Shown: positions 1 to 8,118 of the stretch, piece after piece
Numbering within the stretch: position 1 is the stretch's first letter
Layout of the letters: each line of letters begins with the position of its first letter
Notes under the pieces: model-generated
What the model saw: the letters and a program-made list of their open reading frames with translations, nothing else
Told to the model about the DNA's origin: nothing
Database searches by the model: none
Assembly: GCF_019195395.1 (NCBI RefSeq)
Contig: NZ_CP078067.1
Coordinates: forward strand, 1 to 64,000
Length of the DNA: 64,000 bases
Direction: 5' to 3'
Source of the DNA: Kaistella faecalis
Lineage (GTDB): Bacteria > Bacteroidota > Bacteroidia > Flavobacteriales > Weeksellaceae
Made by a program: the position numbers and the translations under genes

Positions 1-9
1 GTTATCTGC
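1..9 (+). other. Integron-like cassette boundary (R'-type core)
   Basis: The window opens with GTTATCTGC, the exact reverse complement of GCAGATAAC at 2453-2461, just after the first gene. In integron cassettes the first bases come from the same attC whose other half (R'') sits at the cassette's far end, so this match is what an integrated cassette would show. The other half of the attC to which this site belongs lies outside the window. Confidence 0.5.
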
Positions 10-113
10 AACCGCACCAAAAAAAACCAGTGTCGGCTGTAATAATATAACGCTGTTAATTGTCTTCCTTTAAAGCAAAAAATAATTTCCAATAAAAAAT
101 TTCATTTTCAACA

Positions 114-2432
114 ATGTTCAAATTAATCAAACTTTTCACTTTATTTTTAAGTCTACCTTTTTTTGCGCAACAAGAAAATTTTAAAATAAATGGTAACATA
201 ACTGACGGTAAACAAAATAATATTGCAGCAGCACAAGTCTATCTTTTTACAGCAAATAATGAACTTTTAAAAACAACAATTTCTCAAAATGGTAATTTTG
301 AATTTTTACAACTCAAACCCGCTCAGTATCATTTACAGATAGTATCAAATGATATCACACAAAATGAACCCCCTTTCCAACTTTCGTCAGATCTTACTTT
401 AAGTATAATGCTGAATGAAAAGGTTTCTAATATCGAGGAAATCAAAATCTCACGCACAGGAAATCCTTTTAAGATTCAAAATGGAAATATTGACATAGAT
501 GTTGCAAATTCATCATTAAGTAAGGTTGCAACATCCAAAGATTTATTGGGCAAATTGCCGTTTATTTATGTAGATGCAAATGGAGAAGGTTTGACAATGG
601 TGGGGAAAGGTATTCCGCTATTATATATAGATAATCAAGAAGTTGATTTTAATGTATTATCTGCTGTATCTGTTGATGAAATTAAATCTGTAGAAATAAT
701 AAGGAATCCATCAGTAAAATATGAAGCAGAAGGGAAAGCGGTTATCAAAATAATATTAAAAAACAGCAAAAAAGAAGGTTATAAAATCACGCTAAATGAA
801 ACCGCTGTTTTTAACAAACGTTTCACCAATAATTTTTCAGCCAATTTTCAACAGAAAAAAAATAAAACAGAGTGGAAATTAAATGCATCCTACAATCAAA
901 TAAAACATTGGGAAAGTAATGGTTTCGATTATTCGGTTCCCAGCAGAAATATCAATTCAGACTACATCATTACATCACTTACCAATCGTCCGCAAGTTAT
1001 TTTGGGAGCCAGTTTATATCAAGAATTGAATGACGGAGATAACTTAACATTTACAATAAATGGAAATTTAAGACCAGATAAAGGTGATAATAACACGGTA
1101 ACCAACTACGAAGTAAACGGACTAAAATCGCAAATATTAACACTAAATCCGCAGGACAGAAAAAGAGCCACGATCAATTCAATTTTTAATTATAACAAGC
1201 AACTTAAGTCTATTAATGCTACCATTTTTACAGGTTTGCAATATACACGAGAAAGCAATAATGTAGATCTTGAATTTTATAATAATGTTGATAATGTTGG
1301 ATCTATTTTCAGCCAGTTTAGAAAACAAAAATATTCAGTGAATGCTTTTTCCGGAAGAATTGATATTGAGAAGAAAATTAAAGAAAATTACCAAGTAGGT
1401 ATTGGAGGAAGTTTTACAAAAGCAGACGCTGTTACCGATAATTTAACAGATTATAGAAATGTAAATCCTTCTGAGTATTTTAAAAACTTTTTCAATGAAG
1501 AAAACTGGGCTTCCTACGCAGAATTTTCTGGCGAAAAAGAAAAAATAAATTTCAAAGGTGGTATTCGTTTAGAAACAACGTCCGCAAATGGTTTCAACCA
1601 AATTTTGGATGAGACGAATATTGATAGACAATATGTGGATTGGTTCCCCAGTGCCGAATTATCTTTCAAGCAAAATGAGAATTATATCTACACGGTAAAC
1701 TATAAACGGAGTATTTCACGACCAGGTTACAATGATTTGGCTTCGGGCGGATTATACAGTAGCCCTTACGTAGAATACCAAGGAAATCCAGATCTTTTGC
1801 CCTCTTACACCAACGAACTTTCAGCAAGCATCAACTTAAAAAAATGGGCAATAAATGCTTCTGTGTATGAAAGCAAAAACCCGATAGGCTTCGGACTTTT
1901 TTATAATGAAAACGAAAATATATCAAAGTTTACTACCAAAAATTTTGACAAAGAAAGTGGGGCAAGTCTAGGATTGGATGTTCCATTTGAATATAAAATT
2001 TTATCTTCCCAGAATAGTTTATCCATAAATTATTCAAAAACAGAAGACCGTCTTGCAGTTATAAATCAATCCACACCGTATCTTTATCTCTATACAAATA
2101 ATACGATTAAACTTGGAAAAGGCTTTAATTTTCTTTTAGATGGCTCTTGGATTACCAAAAGAATGCAAGGAATTTACGAGTACAACGAAATGGTATTATT
2201 AAATTTGGGATTGACTAAATCAATTTCAAATTTTGACTTCACTTTGCGTTACAATGATGTTTTCAATCAAAATAAATTTATCCAAAAATTAAGTTATGAC
2301 AAAATCATAACGAAAGGCAGTTTTTATGGAAATACTCCAACTTTTTCTGTCGGAATAAAATACAATTTTGGAAAGGTTTCAAATTCAGAATATAAAGAAA
2401 AGCAAATCAATGAAACTGTGGACCGGATTTAA
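114..2432 (+). CDS. Outer-membrane beta-barrel family protein (TonB-receptor-like)
   Basis: This 772-residue protein has a signal peptide ending near FFAQ, a carboxypeptidase-regulatory-like domain (about residues 22-105), a plug-like region (about 110-220, with the VEIIRNPSVKYEAEG segment typical of the family) and a long beta-barrel part of the OMP_b-brl_3 type. No clear TonB box was seen. Family members sit in the outer membrane; the substrate cannot be told from sequence. The gene is very AT-rich compared with the genes after 4.3 kb and lies alone between two attC-like sites, which suggests it came in as a gene cassette. It is large for a cassette. Function in import or signalling is inferred only. 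Confidence 0.85.
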   Translation: MFKLIKLFTLFLSLPFFAQQENFKINGNITDGKQNNIAAAQVYLFTANNELLKTTISQNGNFEFLQLKPAQYHLQIVSNDITQNEPPFQLSSDLTLSIMLNEKVSNIEEIKISRTGNPFKIQNGNIDIDVANSSLSKVATSKDLLGKLPFIYVDANGEGLTMVGKGIPLLYIDNQEVDFNVLSAVSVDEIKSVEIIRNPSVKYEAEGKAVIKIILKNSKKEGYKITLNETAVFNKRFTNNFSANFQQKKNKTEWKLNASYNQIKHWESNGFDYSVPSRNINSDYIITSLTNRPQVILGASLYQELNDGDNLTFTINGNLRPDKGDNNTVTNYEVNGLKSQILTLNPQDRKRATINSIFNYNKQLKSINATIFTGLQYTRESNNVDLEFYNNVDNVGSIFSQFRKQKYSVNAFSGRIDIEKKIKENYQVGIGGSFTKADAVTDNLTDYRNVNPSEYFKNFFNEENWASYAEFSGEKEKINFKGGIRLETTSANGFNQILDETNIDRQYVDWFPSAELSFKQNENYIYTVNYKRSISRPGYNDLASGGLYSSPYVEYQGNPDLLPSYTNELSASINLKKWAINASVYESKNPIGFGLFYNENENISKFTTKNFDKESGASLGLDVPFEYKILSSQNSLSINYSKTEDRLAVINQSTPYLYLYTNNTIKLGKGFNFLLDGSWITKRMQGIYEYNEMVLLNLGLTKSISNFDFTLRYNDVFNQNKFIQKLSYDKIITKGSFYGNTPTFSVGIKYNFGKVSNSEYKEKQINETVDRI

Positions 2433-2452
2433 TGCAAAATTGAAAAGCGGAT

Positions 2453-2587
2453 GCAGATAACATAGTATTGGCAATAGTGCGGAGGAATCGCAAGTTTAAC
2501 CATTTTAGATGTTCCGAAGTTTAGTTTATAATAAGAAAGTTTCCTCGTGAAAGCCGCACCATCGCCAATACGCAAACCGTTAGCGGT
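2453..2587 (+). repeat. attC-like site B (135-bp imperfect palindrome)
   Basis: Left arm: GCAGATAAC (2453-2461) then GTATTGGCAATAGTGCGG (2465-2482). Right arm: CCGCACCATCGCCAATAC (2554-2571) then GTTAGCGGT (2579-2587). The inner arms pair at 16 of 18 positions around a loop of about 70 nt. The outer ends look like R'' (..AAC) and R' (GTT..) core sites, although GTTAGCG departs from the GTTRRRY consensus. Size and architecture fit large integron attC sites, and the total length equals that of the next site. Confidence 0.6.
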
Positions 2588-2620
2588 AATTCCCCTACTC
2601 GAAAACGAAGTTGTTTTTAG

Positions 2621-2711
2621 CCGCTAACGAATAAAATTTCACTATTTTTAAATATAAAATATTAAAAATATAACTAACTGATTATCAATGTTTATATTTA
2701 ACGTTAGTCAG
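2621..2711 (+). repeat. Possible second, degenerate attC-like site
   Basis: CCGCTAACG (2621-2629) is the exact reverse complement of CGTTAGCGG (2578-2586) at the end of site B. It is followed by an AT-rich palindrome (TATTTTTAA 2644-2652 with TTAAAAATA 2662-2670) and by CGTTAGTCAG (2702-2711). This could be a tiny empty cassette of about 120 bp or a decayed attC. The arms are not symmetric about the palindrome, so confidence is low. Confidence 0.3.
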
Positions 2712-2728
2712 AAGTTTATCAAAACTCG

Positions 2729-3406
2729 ATGGATAGAGAAATTACGACATTTAGAACTTTAGAAAATATTGTTGATTTTGAAAATGAAAATGTAGAAATT
2801 AAACAATTAGCTGAATTATTTTTGACAGCTATGAATGATTGGGACTCAAATAATCAAACAAATATTTTTGAATACATAACGAAATTACGAAAATTTGTAG
2901 GAAGTCCAATAACACTAAAAAAAATTGAAGTTAAATCTAAAACTAACATTCTAAATAACGCTTGCAAAATTGAATCTACAACGTCTATTGCAGAAATGAT
3001 TAAAAACGCTGAACAAAAAATACAAGAAAATGATTTTGATAAAATAATTACCCAAATTTTAAATTACTATAATTCAAAATTTGAAGAAATTGATTTTCTA
3101 GCAGAATTACAATATTTGACAACTGAAAATGGAGGAAGAAATTCTTATGCTTTATCTGGTTACAGACCTCAAGTAAAATTTCCTTTTTCAGAAATGACTA
3201 CTTCAGGACAACAAATATTTATAAATAAAGAATATGTTTTTCCAGGCGACAATGTTGAGGCAAAAATTAAAATTTTATCACCAGAATTATTTCAAAATAT
3301 GCTTTACGAAAATTTAGATTTTGAAATGAGAGAAGGTGCAAAAATTGTAGCAATTGGAAAAATAACTAAAATCATAAACGAAAATCTACAAAAAACCTGC
3401 AGCTAA
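2729..3406 (+). CDS. Protein of unknown function with C-terminal EF-Tu domain III homologue
   Basis: This is a 225-residue protein. The last 85 residues or so align by eye with domain III of elongation factor Tu: an AELQYL strand, ENGGR, GYRPQVKF, VFPGDNVEAKIKI, and REGAKIVAIGKITKII, in the order found in EF-Tu (EGGRH, YRPQF, MPGDNV, REGGRTVGAGVVTKI). The GTPase domain and domain II are absent. The first 120 residues are a helical, charged segment not recognised. In EF-Tu this domain contacts EF-Ts and tRNA; whether that holds here is unknown. The gene is very AT-rich, stands alone between attC-like sites, and its stop codon lies within the first bases of the next site. A cassette-borne accessory gene is the best reading. 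Confidence 0.8.
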   Translation: MDREITTFRTLENIVDFENENVEIKQLAELFLTAMNDWDSNNQTNIFEYITKLRKFVGSPITLKKIEVKSKTNILNNACKIESTTSIAEMIKNAEQKIQENDFDKIITQILNYYNSKFEEIDFLAELQYLTTENGGRNSYALSGYRPQVKFPFSEMTTSGQQIFINKEYVFPGDNVEAKIKILSPELFQNMLYENLDFEMREGAKIVAIGKITKIINENLQKTCS

Positions 3407-3533
3407 CAGTGTATTTCTATTAGCGGGGTTGAAGTTTACATCGTAAAGATTTTCGCTAGTTGTTCATTTTGTTATATTTACAGAAAACAATTATAATAAT
3501 CCCCGCCAACAGAAATACCCACCCGTTAGCGGT
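3399..3533 (+). repeat. attC-like site C (135-bp imperfect palindrome)
   Basis: Left arm: GCAGCTAAC (3399-3407) and GTATTTCTATTAGCGGGG (3411-3428). Right arm: CCCCGCCAACAGAAATAC (3501-3518) and GTTAGCGGT (3525-3533). The inner arms pair at 15 or 16 of 18 positions. The R' end GTTAGCGGT is identical to that of site B, whereas the arm sequences differ, which is the pattern expected of attC sites (conserved ends and structure, variable middle). The stop codon of the preceding gene lies inside the left arm, as is usual for cassettes. Confidence 0.6.
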
Positions 3534-3625
3534 ATCGTAGATATTCCAATGCCCTTTGGAGTAGGGTTTAACTGACACAGGCGGCTCAGGTTTCCGCGCA
3601 GTGTATTCTGATTAACATAATTACA

Positions 3626-4021
3626 ATGAAAAATATTTACCTCATCCTCGCCTTCGCAGTAAGCACATTTTCTGCAAAAGCACAAACCAAAGAAGAAACG
3701 GTACAAACCATTGATGCTTTGTATAAATCTGCATTTACCTTTGGGCAGATAAAGGTGGTATCGGTGGCATGTGAAAACAACTTTCTGGTAAAAATATTTT
3801 CCGACAGCGACACTGTGAAAACTGATTTGCAAGAGGTGAAAGTGCTCCGCATAGTACCGCATTATAACGGTGAAAAATGGCACATTATGTACACCGGTAT
3901 TTCGGGAAAAGGAAAAAATGAGGAGTACCTTTTAGGGCATATCAATGTTGAAGAAACTGCCCAAAAACTGAAGGTTTCGCTGGAACATTTAATAGCACTG
4001 GTGAAAAAGGAAAAATTATAA
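3626..4021 (+). CDS. Small exported protein, unknown function
   Basis: This 131-residue product has a clear signal peptide (MKNIYLILAFAVSTFSAKAQ) and so is probably periplasmic or secreted. The mature part has no domain I recognise; it alternates short predicted strands with a C-terminal helix rich in Lys and Leu. It starts about 90 bp after attC-like site C, in the position expected of a third cassette gene. No matching R'' site was found after its stop, so the end of this cassette is not defined. The same reading frame continues open past the stop for another 51 codons (see next entry). Confidence 0.6.
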   Translation: MKNIYLILAFAVSTFSAKAQTKEETVQTIDALYKSAFTFGQIKVVSVACENNFLVKIFSDSDTVKTDLQEVKVLRIVPHYNGEKWHIMYTGISGKGKNEEYLLGHINVEETAQKLKVSLEHLIALVKKEKL

Positions 4022-4177
4022 AATATTGTTTTAAGTCTTAAAGTGGAAAGGCTGACCGAGGAGCAAATAACTGCTTTAATTGAAAATAAAAGAGTTCACC
4101 GTCCGGGAAAAGATATTTCGGAAGTTTTAAACGCTGTTAAAGTTACGGGAACGCGGTTAAGAAGACTTTTATGGTAA
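4022..4177 (+). pseudogene. Open-frame fragment, possible gene remnant
   Basis: Directly after the TAA of the preceding gene, the same frame stays open for 51 codons and ends at TAA 4175-4177. The peptide is charged and helical, with segments LTEEQITALIENK, HRPGKDISEVL and TGTRLRRLLW, and reads like the C-terminus of a DNA-binding or enzymatic protein. There is no good start codon of its own (GTG at about 4043 is possible). It may be the 3' remnant of a gene cut off by insertion of the cassette array. Function unknown. Confidence 0.3.
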
Positions 4178-4265
4178 TACAGATTCTTCATTATATTTTA
4201 TTCCGTTCAGAATCCGAAGATTCGACGTAGTTAATGACAGGCTGAGCAGTGAAAAAAAGCGGTCA

Positions 4266-4300
4266 TTAAAAAAAACAAAGGTCACCTCACGGCGACCTTT
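4266..4300 (-). terminator. Rho-independent terminator
   Basis: Read on the minus strand, AAAGGTCGCC, loop GTGA, GGTGACCTTT is followed by a run of T (4268-4275 on the plus strand are A). It lies about 25 bp after the stop of the 4325-6040 gene and probably ends its transcript. Confidence 0.8.
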
Positions 4301-4324
4301 GCTTATTTAAAAAAAGAGCAGCTT

Positions 4325-6040
4325 TTATTTCTTAATAAACTTCACCTGCTGTTCACCCTTTGCGGTGGTGATTTTAAGCACATACATGCCTGCAGGAAGC
4401 TGGGATACTTCCAGCTGATCGTGTGATCTGTTCTGTTTTACCATCATCAGTTTACCGTCGGCAGCATATACCTGAACATTCAGTAATTTCTCTTTTGAAG
4501 CGATCTTAAGAACATCAGTTACCGGATTCGGATAAATGCTGATCAGTTTGTTGAGATCTGCCGCGGAGGTTCCCAACGTAGGATCCTCCTGTACCTGGAG
4601 TCTTAAGGCGTAAGATTTGGCAAAATTTGTTCCGAAATCCTCGTTGTGCGCCCAGCCGTTTAAAGGACTAGTCGCCCAGTTCACGAAAGTAGTGCCCGGG
4701 GTGAAGACATCATTGGTCATGCTAACTGCGAGCGTTTTATCAAGTTCTACCGCGGTAAGCACATAGGTGCCCGGTGGCAGAACCACCGGTGCGCCTGCAA
4801 AAGAAACAGTAGTGGTAAAAGGGTCGGTACCTGCGGTCTGGTTGGCGGTTTCTGCAATAATGCTCAGTGGTTTTCCGGTGACAGGATCAACGCTCCATAA
4901 AGCCAGACGGTAGGTGGCCGTTTCGTCACCTAGACCGAAACTCACCGTTCCGCCTGTTGCCACAGAAGTTACTTTCGTGGTGAATGCCTGGCCCAGATAA
5001 CCCAGAGTATCGGCACCGATTCCTAAAACACCTGTAGCAACACCGTTATCACGCGCCATGGTGGATTCTGTGATCATGAAATCCAGCGACTGTTTAGTGT
5101 TGTTTGCAGGATTCTGGTCTGGTGAGCTTAAGGCCACTTCATACAGGATATGGTAGTTCCCTGTTGCTGTTACCGGCATCGCGGGGAAAGACGGTGTGGC
5201 TGTCTGTCCCGGATTTAAAGTAATGGCCGCCGAAAATACACTGGCAACTGCATTATTCAGGTCATCAATGAGACTGGCTTTAATTTTTGCATCAGTAAGA
5301 GTCAATGCCCCTTCATTCTTAATGGTGGCATGTAAAGGAACGCCTGCGGCAGAATGAGAGAGCGGATAGTGGGTATATTCATAATTCTTCACCGCAGTAA
5401 TGGAAGCGTCAATGTTGATAAGGGCCGACACTTCTACATCATCAATGACAAGAATAAATTTGTCGGTAGAATTGTTCCTGAATGCAATTCTGAAGGTTTT
5501 GTTTCTGTAATCATTAAGGCTTAGGCTTCGGGCCGTCCAGGCAGTGTTTTCAGCAGGAGTGCTGAATAACTGCACCGAGGAAGTAAGCTGGTTGCCCATC
5601 ACTCCAGGTCCGCCGGTAGGCTCTGTAGGGTCCAGCATAATTCTCACCTCATATCCATCCGGATATGCTGGATCATAGGCTTTGGCATTCCACTTTAAGA
5701 CCACATCGGCACCGGTATCGGGTACCGTGATTTTTGGGGTCCACATCCAGTCGTCTGCCTGCCCGGAAGGACTGTACCATGAGGTGCTGAATGCTACGGA
5801 ATCAATCACGTTGGTCTGAAAATCTTCCCGTCTTTCCCAGGCCTCATTCACATAGCCAACCTGGCTGGAGGGAGTTTTATTATCGACGTTCCTGAGCAGC
5901 CAGCCCGGAGGGAATTTATAGGTGCCAGCACCGCCGGTGGTAGATCCGCTGATCCCGTCGAAAGTTTCCTGGAAAATAACCTGTGAATAGCTGAAAATAC
6001 CCAGCATCATCAACAGAAAAATTGATAGTCGTTTTTTCAT
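4325..6040 (-). CDS. T9SS type A sorting domain protein (choice-of-anchor J)
   Basis: This is a 571-residue secreted protein. It has a signal peptide (to about residue 19, IFSYSQ), an N-terminal choice-of-anchor J-like lectin fold (FDGISGSTTGG, GWLLRNVDNKTPSS, TSWYSPSGQADDWMWTPKI, about 20-210), a CARDB-like beta-sandwich (about 215-325), a further beta domain, and a C-terminal T9SS type A sorting signal starting at ISIYPNPV (about 495-571, ending FIKK). The sorting domain directs export through the type IX system and anchoring or release at the cell surface. The binding target is not known. It is transcribed alone, has a terminator on its 3' side, and shares tandem GGACAAA boxes upstream with the T9SS gene at 6671-7687. 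Confidence 0.88.
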   Translation of the reverse strand: MKKRLSIFLLMMLGIFSYSQVIFQETFDGISGSTTGGAGTYKFPPGWLLRNVDNKTPSSQVGYVNEAWERREDFQTNVIDSVAFSTSWYSPSGQADDWMWTPKITVPDTGADVVLKWNAKAYDPAYPDGYEVRIMLDPTEPTGGPGVMGNQLTSSVQLFSTPAENTAWTARSLSLNDYRNKTFRIAFRNNSTDKFILVIDDVEVSALINIDASITAVKNYEYTHYPLSHSAAGVPLHATIKNEGALTLTDAKIKASLIDDLNNAVASVFSAAITLNPGQTATPSFPAMPVTATGNYHILYEVALSSPDQNPANNTKQSLDFMITESTMARDNGVATGVLGIGADTLGYLGQAFTTKVTSVATGGTVSFGLGDETATYRLALWSVDPVTGKPLSIIAETANQTAGTDPFTTTVSFAGAPVVLPPGTYVLTAVELDKTLAVSMTNDVFTPGTTFVNWATSPLNGWAHNEDFGTNFAKSYALRLQVQEDPTLGTSAADLNKLISIYPNPVTDVLKIASKEKLLNVQVYAADGKLMMVKQNRSHDQLEVSQLPAGMYVLKITTAKGEQQVKFIKK

Positions 6041-6072
6041 AGTGATTGTTTAAATAATGTAGCGCTAAAATT

Positions 6073-6125
6073 ACCATCATTGATGGGCTGCGCCAAAAAC
6101 ACAGGGTGGACAAATAGGGGACAAA
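6073..6125 (-). promoter_or_regulatory. Candidate promoter with tandem GGACAAA boxes
   Basis: Two GGACAAA boxes (6108-6114 and 6119-6125, plus-strand orientation) are spaced 11 bp start to start, about one helical turn. About 30 bp nearer the gene, the minus strand has TAATTTTA, close to the Bacteroidota -7 element TAnnTTTG. The same boxes lie upstream of the next T9SS gene. A shared activator binding site is inferred; LytTR-type regulators bind direct repeats spaced like this. Confidence 0.45.
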
Positions 6126-6247
6126 GTGTTTATACAAATCAGTGATACTGGTAATCAGTCATTTAGCTGGTATTTGCACCTATTAAATGAAGGCCTTTAC
6201 ACACCGGACTGGCTGACCACGATATTCGACAGCTTCAGAAGACAGCG

Positions 6248-6367
6248 ATGAATTTCCGGATCACTCCCACGGTACTTGCTGTTTGGATAACCCTTTATAG
6301 TACAGCCTGTGTCAATTTGAAGCCTCAACAGAAGATGTCAATCACTACCACTACTCAGGTTAAATAA
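6248..6367 (+). CDS. Possible 39-residue lipoprotein-like peptide
   Basis: A short ATG ORF encodes a hydrophobic N-terminal segment followed by LYSTAC, which could serve as a lipobox, and a polar Thr/Gln-rich tail. An AGAAGA stretch lies about 8 bp before the ATG. No homologue is recognised. It lies in a 630-bp gap between two minus-strand genes. It may be a real small surface lipoprotein, a truncated gene or chance. Confidence 0.25.
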   Translation: MNFRITPTVLAVWITLYSTACVNLKPQQKMSITTTTQVK

Positions 6368-6496
6368 AATCATTTATTCTAAAAACGAGACACCGAGATG
6401 CTAACAGCGGGAAAAACGCTGTGTTGATCATTATCTTTTTATTGCAGAACCCGACCTGTTTAACCTCTTTCCTGAGTTATATCTTTTCCGCCTACA

Positions 6497-6538
6497 AAAA
6501 AACCTCCTTTAAATTGCTTTAAAAGAGGTTTTGTAGTG
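6497..6538 (-). terminator. Rho-independent terminator
   Basis: The stem AAAACCTCCTTTAAA (6501-6515) pairs with TTTAAAAGAGGTTTT (6520-6534) at all but one position, extended by CTAC/GTAG. On the minus strand it ends in a run of seven T. It lies about 135 bp after the stop of the 6671-7687 gene. Confidence 0.7.
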
Positions 6539-6546
6539 TTAAGATT

Positions 6547-6630
6547 CCGGATTGATACCAAAAAACTGACCGTCATAAAGCCGCATTAAGCCGCGCTTTA
6601 GCTTGATCTTTTCGTGGTATCAATGTCCGG
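6547..6630. repeat. 84-bp palindromic element of unknown nature
   Basis: CCGGATTGATACCA (6547-6560) pairs with TGGTATCAATGTCCGG (6615-6630), perfect except for a 2-nt bulge. Inside lies a second stem, TAAAGC (6576-6581) with GCTTTA (6595-6600), and a doubled GCCGC. It contains no ORF. It sits between the terminator and the stop of the 6671-7687 gene, so it may be part of that mRNA's 3' end, a REP-like unit or a small structured RNA. Confidence 0.45.
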
Positions 6631-6670
6631 TATTCCTATTTTATAAGCGGTAATAAAGAGGTTTCTTTAT

Positions 6671-7687
6671 TTACAGCTTAATCAGTTTGGTAATCTTCGG
6701 ACTTTCGTTGCTGTTAATTTTTACCAGATAATTTCCTTTTGGAAGATCAGAAACCTGATATTCATCAGCGCTTTTCAGTACTTTTACAGTTCTTCCGCCG
6801 GCATCCATTATTTCTACTGAACTGATCGCCAGTTTTCCCGGATTACTGATTCTAAAATGGTCATTCACGGGATTAGGGTACACTTTTATTCTGTTATCAT
6901 ACTGCATTACTGCATCGGTCCCTAAATTACCCGTGGTAAAGGTGATGACAAAGGGCATATCCAAAGAATAATCCGGTGCCGCAGTAGGATTTCCTGAGTC
7001 GATGATAGAAGTCCACATTCCATCGATGGCATTGTATTGCTTGGCATTAAAGTCGGGTAACCCTCTTGTTCCTGCAATGGTAACCGGAGGTAAAAAGCCG
7101 GCATTAGCGGCAACAGCATTCTGTAACTGATACTTCATCCAATAGGTTCCGGATGGTAAACTAACTGGAGTATTGGCTGTAACCTTCCATATTTTTCGGT
7201 TCGTTGAGGGAGTTGAAGCAACCGGAATTGTACTGTGACCGGTTCTGTACATATCAGCATCCACACTCGAAAGAAACCGATTGGTGGTATCGTCTCCAAA
7301 AACACTTACTGCACCCGTCACAGAAGGATCAGAACTGAATATATTAACTCGTACGGTATTGAAAGGAGAAGCAGTTCCGGTATAATTAGTCTGGTACGCA
7401 AAAAAATCAATACGGGTAATATTCCATTGTGTATCGGCTGGAACAGTAAAATCGTCTGCAAGAAAATAGCTTGTAGTAGCAGAACTGTACGTACCACCCA
7501 ACCCCAGGCTGGTGTTAGCTTCCGCACTATTTCCTGTATTATTCTGAAGTTCAGACCAGGTATAGCCTGCAGGAGCAGCAACACCGCTTTTTGAGGTAGC
7601 TCCTGTACTCAAACCTCCGTTATCATAGGTTTGGCCCAAGGTAAATGATGCTGCTAAAACTGCAGCGCTAAGTAAAAATTTTGTCAT
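6671..7687 (-). CDS. T9SS type A sorting domain protein
   Basis: This is a 338-residue secreted protein with a signal peptide (MTKFLLSAAVLAASFTLGQ). The body is rich in Thr, Ser, Asn and Gly and predicted to be all-beta, with no catalytic motif I recognise. The C-terminus is a type A T9SS sorting domain beginning IKVYPNPV (about residue 268) and ending TKLIKL. It is probably exported across the outer membrane and presented on the surface. The substrate or partner is unknown. It is alone in its transcript, with a terminator and a large palindrome after it and tandem GGACAAA boxes before it. Confidence 0.85.
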   Translation of the reverse strand: MTKFLLSAAVLAASFTLGQTYDNGGLSTGATSKSGVAAPAGYTWSELQNNTGNSAEANTSLGLGGTYSSATTSYFLADDFTVPADTQWNITRIDFFAYQTNYTGTASPFNTVRVNIFSSDPSVTGAVSVFGDDTTNRFLSSVDADMYRTGHSTIPVASTPSTNRKIWKVTANTPVSLPSGTYWMKYQLQNAVAANAGFLPPVTIAGTRGLPDFNAKQYNAIDGMWTSIIDSGNPTAAPDYSLDMPFVITFTTGNLGTDAVMQYDNRIKVYPNPVNDHFRISNPGKLAISSVEIMDAGGRTVKVLKSADEYQVSDLPKGNYLVKINSNESPKITKLIKL

Positions 7688-7806
7688 AGTGTAGTATTTA
7701 GGTTATTTTTCTTTTTCAGTGAGTAATGCAGGACAGCTCCTTTGACCGTTTTCCTGCAGATGGATCCTGTTAATTCATCTGTTTAAAACAGGGTTGGGAA
7801 TTAATT

Positions 7807-7873
7807 GGACACAAAATAAAGTAAGTTATCTCACAGTACGCATAAGGTATGGGGGGACAAATGGGGGGACAAA
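7807..7873 (-). promoter_or_regulatory. Candidate promoter with tandem GGACAAA boxes
   Basis: GGACAAA occurs at 7855-7861 and 7867-7873 (12-bp spacing, each preceded by GGGG), with a weaker GGACACAAA at 7807-7815. About 38 bp nearer the gene the minus strand reads TTTATTTTG, near the -7 consensus. The arrangement matches that upstream of the 4325-6040 gene. No other feature is seen between 7688 and 8118. Confidence 0.45.
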
Positions 7874-8118
7874 TGTGCCTGTCGGTGTAACCTTCAGATA
7901 ATCAGGTGTTATGTTTTGGCTTTTTACTTCTCTTTATTACAGCCATGGTTGTGCACTTTCTTACAGATATCGCTTTTCACTCCCCCGAATTACAGGATTT
8001 TGTACCTTAGTCCTGCCCTTTGATTGCGAAATTGACTTTTAAAAAGTGCGAAGATGGAGCACAGTAAAACCGCCACGTCTGCGAAGACCGGGTGTGGAAA
8101 TCATTAAAAAATGCTGAG

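Follow-up and report, generated by a model that had tools for sequence, protein, structure and literature searches.

Gene cassettes at the start of a Kaistella faecalis contig point to an integron-like system of Bacteroidota with a candidate tyrosine recombinase of its own

Two cassettes and their hairpin sites

The DNA studied here, which we call the window, is the first 64 kb of the 2.66-Mb single contig NZ_CP078067.1 of Kaistella faecalis; base 1 of the window is base 1 of the contig. It begins with two single-gene units, each followed by a 135-bp hairpin-forming site. From sequence, which is the evidence throughout, we consider it very probable that both units are gene cassettes and belong to a system of Bacteroidota that resembles an integron and is driven by a tyrosine recombinase. 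The features are:

1..9, + strand: R' core GTTATCTGC, the 5' end of cassette 1; exact reverse complement of 2453-2461 (GCAGATAAC)
114..2432, + strand: cassette 1 gene, 772-aa outer-membrane beta-barrel protein, TonB-receptor-like (PF14905 6.5e-52, PF00593 1.1e-11)
2453..2587, + strand: attC-like site A, R'' GCAGATAAC, 18-bp helix, R' GTTAGCGGT (from palindrome, fold and copies in relatives)
2579..2713, + strand: cassette 2 core and leader; the leader recurs with 95.6% identity at the head of an unrelated cassette at contig ~88.5 kb
2729..3406, + strand: cassette 2 gene, 225-aa protein with an EF-Tu domain-3-like region (PF03143 9.9e-11)
3399..3533, + strand: attC-like site B, R'' GCAGCTAAC, 18-bp helix, R' GTTAGCGGT (from palindrome, fold and copies elsewhere)
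3558..8000, + strand: non-cassette flank; 97% identical in the relative G035, which has a different cassette upstream

An initial annotation of this DNA had described the two 135-bp palindromes and their common R'-like end. We confirmed the positions, and both sites finish in GTTAGCGGT. The 18-bp helices, GTATTGGCAATAGTGCGG with CCGCACCATCGCCAATAC at site A and GTATTTCTATTAGCGGGG with CCCCGCCAACAGAAATAC at site B, are bulge-free as seen by a detector that does not look for bulges. Folding energies were computed for the bottom strand of each site and were better than those of shuffled sequence (z = -4.6 for A and -4.0 for B). The detector is our own, and several site counts below are its output; it took a TAAC-helix-GTTA form first and a broader NAAC/GTTN form later. 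The first form recovered both sites and gave no match in 311 kb of shuffled sequence. Counting the GTTAGCGG pattern alone revealed no enrichment in the window, so the core pattern by itself proves nothing, and an Rfam scan of the window found tRNAs only and no attC family.

The annotation was also right that positions 1-9 complement the far end of unit 1 exactly; because the window starts at contig base 1, this 9-bp match alone is weak evidence, and it gains strength only through the array-wide test of cassette ends given below. At cassette 2 the ends GTTAGCGGT and GCAGCTAAC agree at four of five variable positions, and the stop codon of its open reading frame (ORF), already placed inside the next site by the annotation, falls within R'' of site B. 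The contig start is an exact cassette boundary; if joined as a circle (L004 end) it would read CCGAGA/GTTATCTGC, which resembles the end of the type II attI described below (a slash marks a junction or crossover point throughout).

The palindromes are not fixed beside the same genes in all relatives. Copies of site A with 80-94% identity adjoin other genes within the genus and the family of the window genome, and site B has 80-85% identical copies both in this genome's main array (L009) and on a plasmid of Chryseobacterium. The cassette 2 gene is present in 8 of 119 relatives, and its homologues include single-gene cassettes with other neighbours (L191) and a gene adjoining an attC (L195). At the orthologous spot in G035, the downstream DNA is 97% identical and is preceded by a different cassette, with a 316-aa ORF and the ends GTTAGCTGAC and GTCAGCTAAC; on this alignment a cassette has been replaced at the window site. 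The end AGCTACCGGAGGTTTAGTTCAAC stands at the window-equivalent site in both G035 and a second relative, G014, where the site is truncated. No clean empty site for the window pair was found, G035 holding the other cassette and G014 the truncated site.

A leader of ~125 bp (AATTCCCCTACTCGAAAACGAAG...TATATTTAACGTTAG) is common to cassettes with different cores and genes (window 2588-2713, L009 8513-8638, and L221). This leader may act as a promoter carried by the cassette, or it may hide a second site.

Cassette ends and arrays in relatives

Sites of this kind are present in 53 of 149 relatives, and in most of the relatives searched within the window's own genus. In the stretches of relatives that we fetched, the sites form long arrays of single-gene units, some with an intact integrase. 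If recombination occurs at G/TT, then the R' of a cassette should be the reverse complement of its own R'', whatever its neighbours. All five variable bases followed this rule in 152 of 210 consecutive cassettes, where shuffled pairings averaged 10 and never exceeded 21; R'' and R' within one site agreed in 21 of 210. The core reads GTTR, three variable bases and mostly G (GTTRNNNG), not GTTRRRY, and the median cassette body is 748 bp.

The attC sites fall into size classes. Most are ~130-136 bp, and variants with similar arms are ~87 bp (L072 3718-3804 and 8915-9001) or ~197 bp (L072 10849-11045, L088 10636-10832). Gene-less units of 151-153 bp, with R' GTTGGGAAA and R'' TTCCCAAC, are interspersed among ordinary cassettes (L188 13179-13329, 15274-15424 and 17655-17805; L068 4418-4570) and are possibly cassettes of little beyond an attC. 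The array on the plasmid of Chryseobacterium sp. SNU WT5 contains a group II intron reverse transcriptase gene (L188 18765-20081); group II introns have been reported in classical integrons too. IS91-like elements, with their own tyrosine recombinase of 201-278 aa and a ~415-aa ORF, abut attC sites (L066-L068, L071, L228), where R'' then reads AGTTCAAC; the R'' of attC seems to be a preferred target of these elements.

Integrases at the head of the arrays

The arrays begin beside a tyrosine recombinase of one of two types, each paired with its own attI. The type I gene (347 aa) lies upstream of attI and is co-directional with the array. The type II gene (~361 aa) is divergent, and its attI has the direct repeats TGCGTATTT and the core TTGCGTATATTTGAGA/GTTA. 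An additional domain near patch III, specific to IntI, is needed for IntI activity and serves as an IntegronFinder criterion (PMC9668308, PMC2426708). This insert is present in IntI1 and a Vibrio IntI and absent from all aligned type I and type II sequences; alignments to the TIGR02249 hidden Markov model and to IntI4 break into two pieces at the insert, skipping it. Since IntegronFinder requires the profile of that domain (PMC9668308), it should miss the type I and type II enzymes. Their TIGR02249 scores are 178-207 bits against a curated cut-off of 265, and none of the 149 relatives had a match above it. Matches below the cut-off occur in nearly every genome and in 13 of 14 controls, so that a bare match is meaningless without array context. 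In a tree, IntI, type I and type II form separate supported clades, whose deep order the tree leaves open.

The first ~60 residues of type I are predicted to form a separate domain (pLDDT, the predicted local distance difference test, 86) with the order beta-beta-alpha-beta-beta-alpha. A Foldseek search of 350,542 chains gave the SMARCAL1 HARP domain (4o66) as the top match to this domain, with weak scores (E 0.29, probability 0.69, template modelling score 0.43); Pfam gave no HARP match and a weak one to DUF5710. Near the integrase in several genomes lies a conserved gene of ~240 aa (MARxKKNGxLSGAI...; L063 3523-4254, L070 6426-7148, L072 481-1203); it is either a partner gene or a sign that these genomes share the chromosomal locus.

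Searching genome contigs with the integrase query found at least 555 relatives. The best 80 of these include Flavobacterium, Kaistella, Chryseobacterium, Pedobacter, Chitinophagaceae, Saprospiraceae and others, and their type I loci show 109 sites downstream of the integrase (in 342 kb) versus 11 upstream (in 677 kb; p = 3e-39). Many contigs end within 300 bp of the integrase gene, as expected if repeated sites break assemblies; this is one likely reason that the arrays have been overlooked. In a random sample of the phylum, 105 of 395 genomes had an integrase match at 1e-75, ~20 of them full-length type I, and the remainder belong to a wider family, often without the N-terminal domain. A Chryseobacterium plasmid carries a full type I integrase with an array, and a C. 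oryzae plasmid also carries the integrase. When attC sites were compared with plasmids by blastn a single record was returned, because the arms diverge.

The attI site and strand bias

After the type I stop codon there follow, in order, a TAnnTTTG-like box (at many loci), an inverted repeat, and ...TATATACAA/GTTR. The box is a candidate promoter, judging by its sequence and position. Inverted repeats scoring 9 or more were found in 40 of 69 attI regions versus 4 of 69 shuffled ones, with 64 distinct arm sequences. At 30 of 36 loci, at least four of the five positions of the attI core match the first cassette's end; shuffling gave 5.4 loci on average and 12 at most.

For strand bias we used a detector neutral to both wobble types and took orientation from the integrase. 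There were 78 sites with a wobble excess on the bottom strand (G.T) against 10 in reverse (p = 3e-14), and the bottom strand thus stays paired where the top strand has A.C mismatches. This suggests that the folded bottom strand is the recombination substrate, as it is for attC.

An integrase relic in the window genome

At ~70.25-70.43 kb on the same contig lies an integrase relic that keeps its last ~60 residues and has an internal deletion and a frameshift. An intact attI (...TTGTATTTGTCTGACAAAGTAGGACATATATACAA/GTTATCTGC) follows it directly, and then an array, longer than the window pair, up to ~82 kb. A further cassette, sharing its leader with cassette 2, sits at 88.5 kb in a type II attI core. 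With relic, intact attI and array elsewhere on the chromosome, the window pair is a satellite of a decayed chromosomal system.

This alters two labels of the initial annotation. It had called the window units a cluster of attC sites lacking an integrase (CALIN), that is, at least two attC sites with no integrase nearby. The window does hold two sites, its cassettes lack a working integrase, and the relic is ~67 kb away; the integrase is not simply missing, however, as relic, intact attI and array show. It had also called the array integron-like: the cassette logic is borne out, but without the IntI-specific domain, which the intact enzyme of relatives does not have, the system falls outside the usual definition of an integron.

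tet(X) and blaVEB as cassettes

A plasmid of Empedobacter falsenii carries tet(X) as a complete cassette (GTTATGTGCC...GGCACATAAC) with a hairpin attC and matching ends. Homology between this cassette and Acinetobacter tet(X3)/tet(X5) begins exactly at G/TT (query 838). What is labelled 'xerD' beside tet(X3)/tet(X5) in Acinetobacter is a type-I-like integrase that has been truncated. It shares ~47% identity with type I, and the stretch associated with tet(X3) contains a stop codon. An attI of the kind described above stands at the start of the tet(X) units in both Acinetobacter and Escherichia coli; in the latter, estT-tet(X4) comes after ...GAATGTTTCGTATATATATAA/GTTAGCGGG. ISCR2-type elements accompany tet(X). 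In Acinetobacter, the left half of an attC (CTACTAACAAGCAGTTTTGCAATAGTGGGG) is left after tet(X3) (L201 4975-5117), its R'' unmatched to the 5' core of the unit.

In Klebsiella, blaVEB lies 3' of a truncated type-I-like integrase and attI; in Aliarcobacter it lies at a type-I-like attI (...GTCATACATATAAACTA/GTTAGCGG), and in class 1 integrons at AAACAAA/GTTAGCGG. With the same boundary in both settings, one cassette is thus found in both systems. Pseudomonas blaVEB-1 is surrounded by '135-bp repeated elements' (PMC3668210), which by their description may be sites of this kind. The system described here looks like the one in which tet(X), a last-line resistance gene, travelled as a cassette before reaching other bacteria.

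Discussion

In the account that we propose, a cassette consists of one gene plus a hairpin site of ~135 bp, and the tyrosine recombinase would join cassettes by cutting G/TT within the GTTRNNNG core. Each cassette would then carry at its start the R' of its circular form, matching the R'' at its end. An intact locus runs from recombinase gene through promoter-like box and attI, with its inverted repeats ending in ...TATATACAA/GTTR, into a one-way array. The hairpin is most stable as the bottom strand, where mismatches turn into G.T wobbles. In the window genome the integrase has decayed to a relic, and the window cassettes are stranded remnants apart from the main array.

Other origins of the units can be considered. 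The palindromes form strong hairpins right after stop codons, and might terminate transcription in addition; that they are terminators or repetitive extragenic palindromic (REP)-like repeats and not recombination sites is nevertheless extremely unlikely, in view of the matching of cassette ends, the exact G/TT boundaries common to unrelated contexts, and the replaced cassette beside the same flank in G035. Arrays built elsewhere by IntI and merely resident here would share the cassette logic and the G/TT crossover, and blaVEB cassettes do occur in class 1 integrons. Such import is highly improbable, as the 149 relatives gave no TIGR02249 match over the cut-off, the cores are GTTRNNNG, and the integrase upstream of the sites is not an IntI and has an attI of its own, with a core that fits the first cassette at those 30 of 36 loci.

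The integrase at the array head might be a passenger, the cassettes being moved by host XerC/XerD or some other recombinase: all these genomes have Xer-type recombinases, and the window genome keeps its cassettes with no working type I enzyme. We give this idea very little credence: across genera, type I is tightly linked to attI and array in a polar order, the relic in the window's own genome stands directly before an intact attI, and the two types each have their own attI. IS91/ISCR-like elements, in place of a site-specific integrase, might have spread the units, including the satellite pair of the window; they abut many attC sites with their own tyrosine recombinase (R'' AGTTCAAC), the AGCTACCGGAGGTTTAGTTCAAC end occurs at the window site in G035 and G014, and ISCR2-type elements accompany tet(X). 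Relocation of whole pieces could be explained in this way, but complementary cassette ends, insertion at attI and one-way arrays could not, and we think this account unlikely.

Several points weigh against the recombinase-driven cassette system that we favour. Catalysis by the type I recombinase is a prediction from its genomic association, and satellite cassettes like the window pair may have been placed by IS91-like elements and not by the integrase. The 58 of 210 cassettes without a full five-position match reflect decay, missed sites and insertion sequence (IS) insertions. The 3' end of Acinetobacter tet(X3) does not match its 5' core; that unit is a hybrid or rearranged cassette. The tree leaves open a common origin of types I, II and IntI, and the HARP resemblance of the modelled N-terminal domain is weak, a lead rather than a membership, so that any role of the domain is putative.

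A wider account seems to us possible, though we would not quite expect it to hold: a class of integron proper to Bacteroidota, whose recombinase has, in place of the IntI-specific domain, a HARP-like N-terminal domain that reads DNA structure, and which would be a main native source of cassettes such as tet(X) and blaVEB, carried later into Pseudomonadota by ISCR-type elements and class 1 integrons.

Among known systems, IntI integrons (including sedentary chromosomal ones and CALINs) share the tyrosine recombinase, attI, one-way array of single-gene cassettes, hairpin attC with bottom-strand bias, G/TT crossover, and decayed arrays without integrase. They differ from the system here, whose type I and II enzymes lack the IntI-specific domain and fall below the TIGR02249 cut-off, whose core is GTTRNNNG versus GTTRRRY, whose attI has inverted repeats, and whose type I enzyme has an extra N-terminal domain and a gene co-directional with the array, upstream of attI. 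Archaeal XerA/Xer recombinases offer the closest solved structures (PDB 4a8e, 5hxy) and profile (NF040815, 217 of 220 bits); unlike them, the system here has attI, cassette arrays and the N-terminal domain. Xer acts at a chromosomal dif-type site. The SMARCAL1 HARP domain, for its part, is the top though weakly scoring fold match of that N-terminal domain, and belongs to a different protein context. The 'xerD'-tet(X3)/tet(X5), estT-tet(X4) and blaVEB contexts resemble our loci in having a truncated type-I-like integrase and/or attI first and exact cassette boundaries, but do not amount to working systems: they are fragments that travel on ISCR-type elements or in class 1 integrons. In naturally transformed Riemerella anatipestifer, aph(3')-IVb was acquired independently of homology, with 27 bp of 5' and 140 bp of 3' DNA co-integrating, and the 140-bp stretch folds like attC (PMC13148043); that study names no recombinase, and we liken it to the system here by description only.

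A large survey found a single complete integron in Bacteroidetes, in Salinibacter (PMC9024848). We found no description of the integrase-array pair in the full-text literature, a search whose coverage left out bioRxiv and most subscription journals, so an earlier description is possible. Both the definition of integrons and the searches for them rely on a domain that the type I and type II enzymes lack, and a cassette system common in Bacteroidota appears to have been overlooked by standard tools. A 2020 paper left as an open question whether the adjacent 'XerD' mobilises tet(X) (PMC7473080), and the findings here offer a concrete answer. They also suggest which kind of enzyme might lie behind the homology-independent gene uptake in Riemerella, so far unexplained (PMC13148043), and provide a natural test of how a recombinase that lacks the IntI domain can read single-stranded DNA in folded form. 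Should the system work as we infer, a whole phylum would have its own platform for cassette capture.

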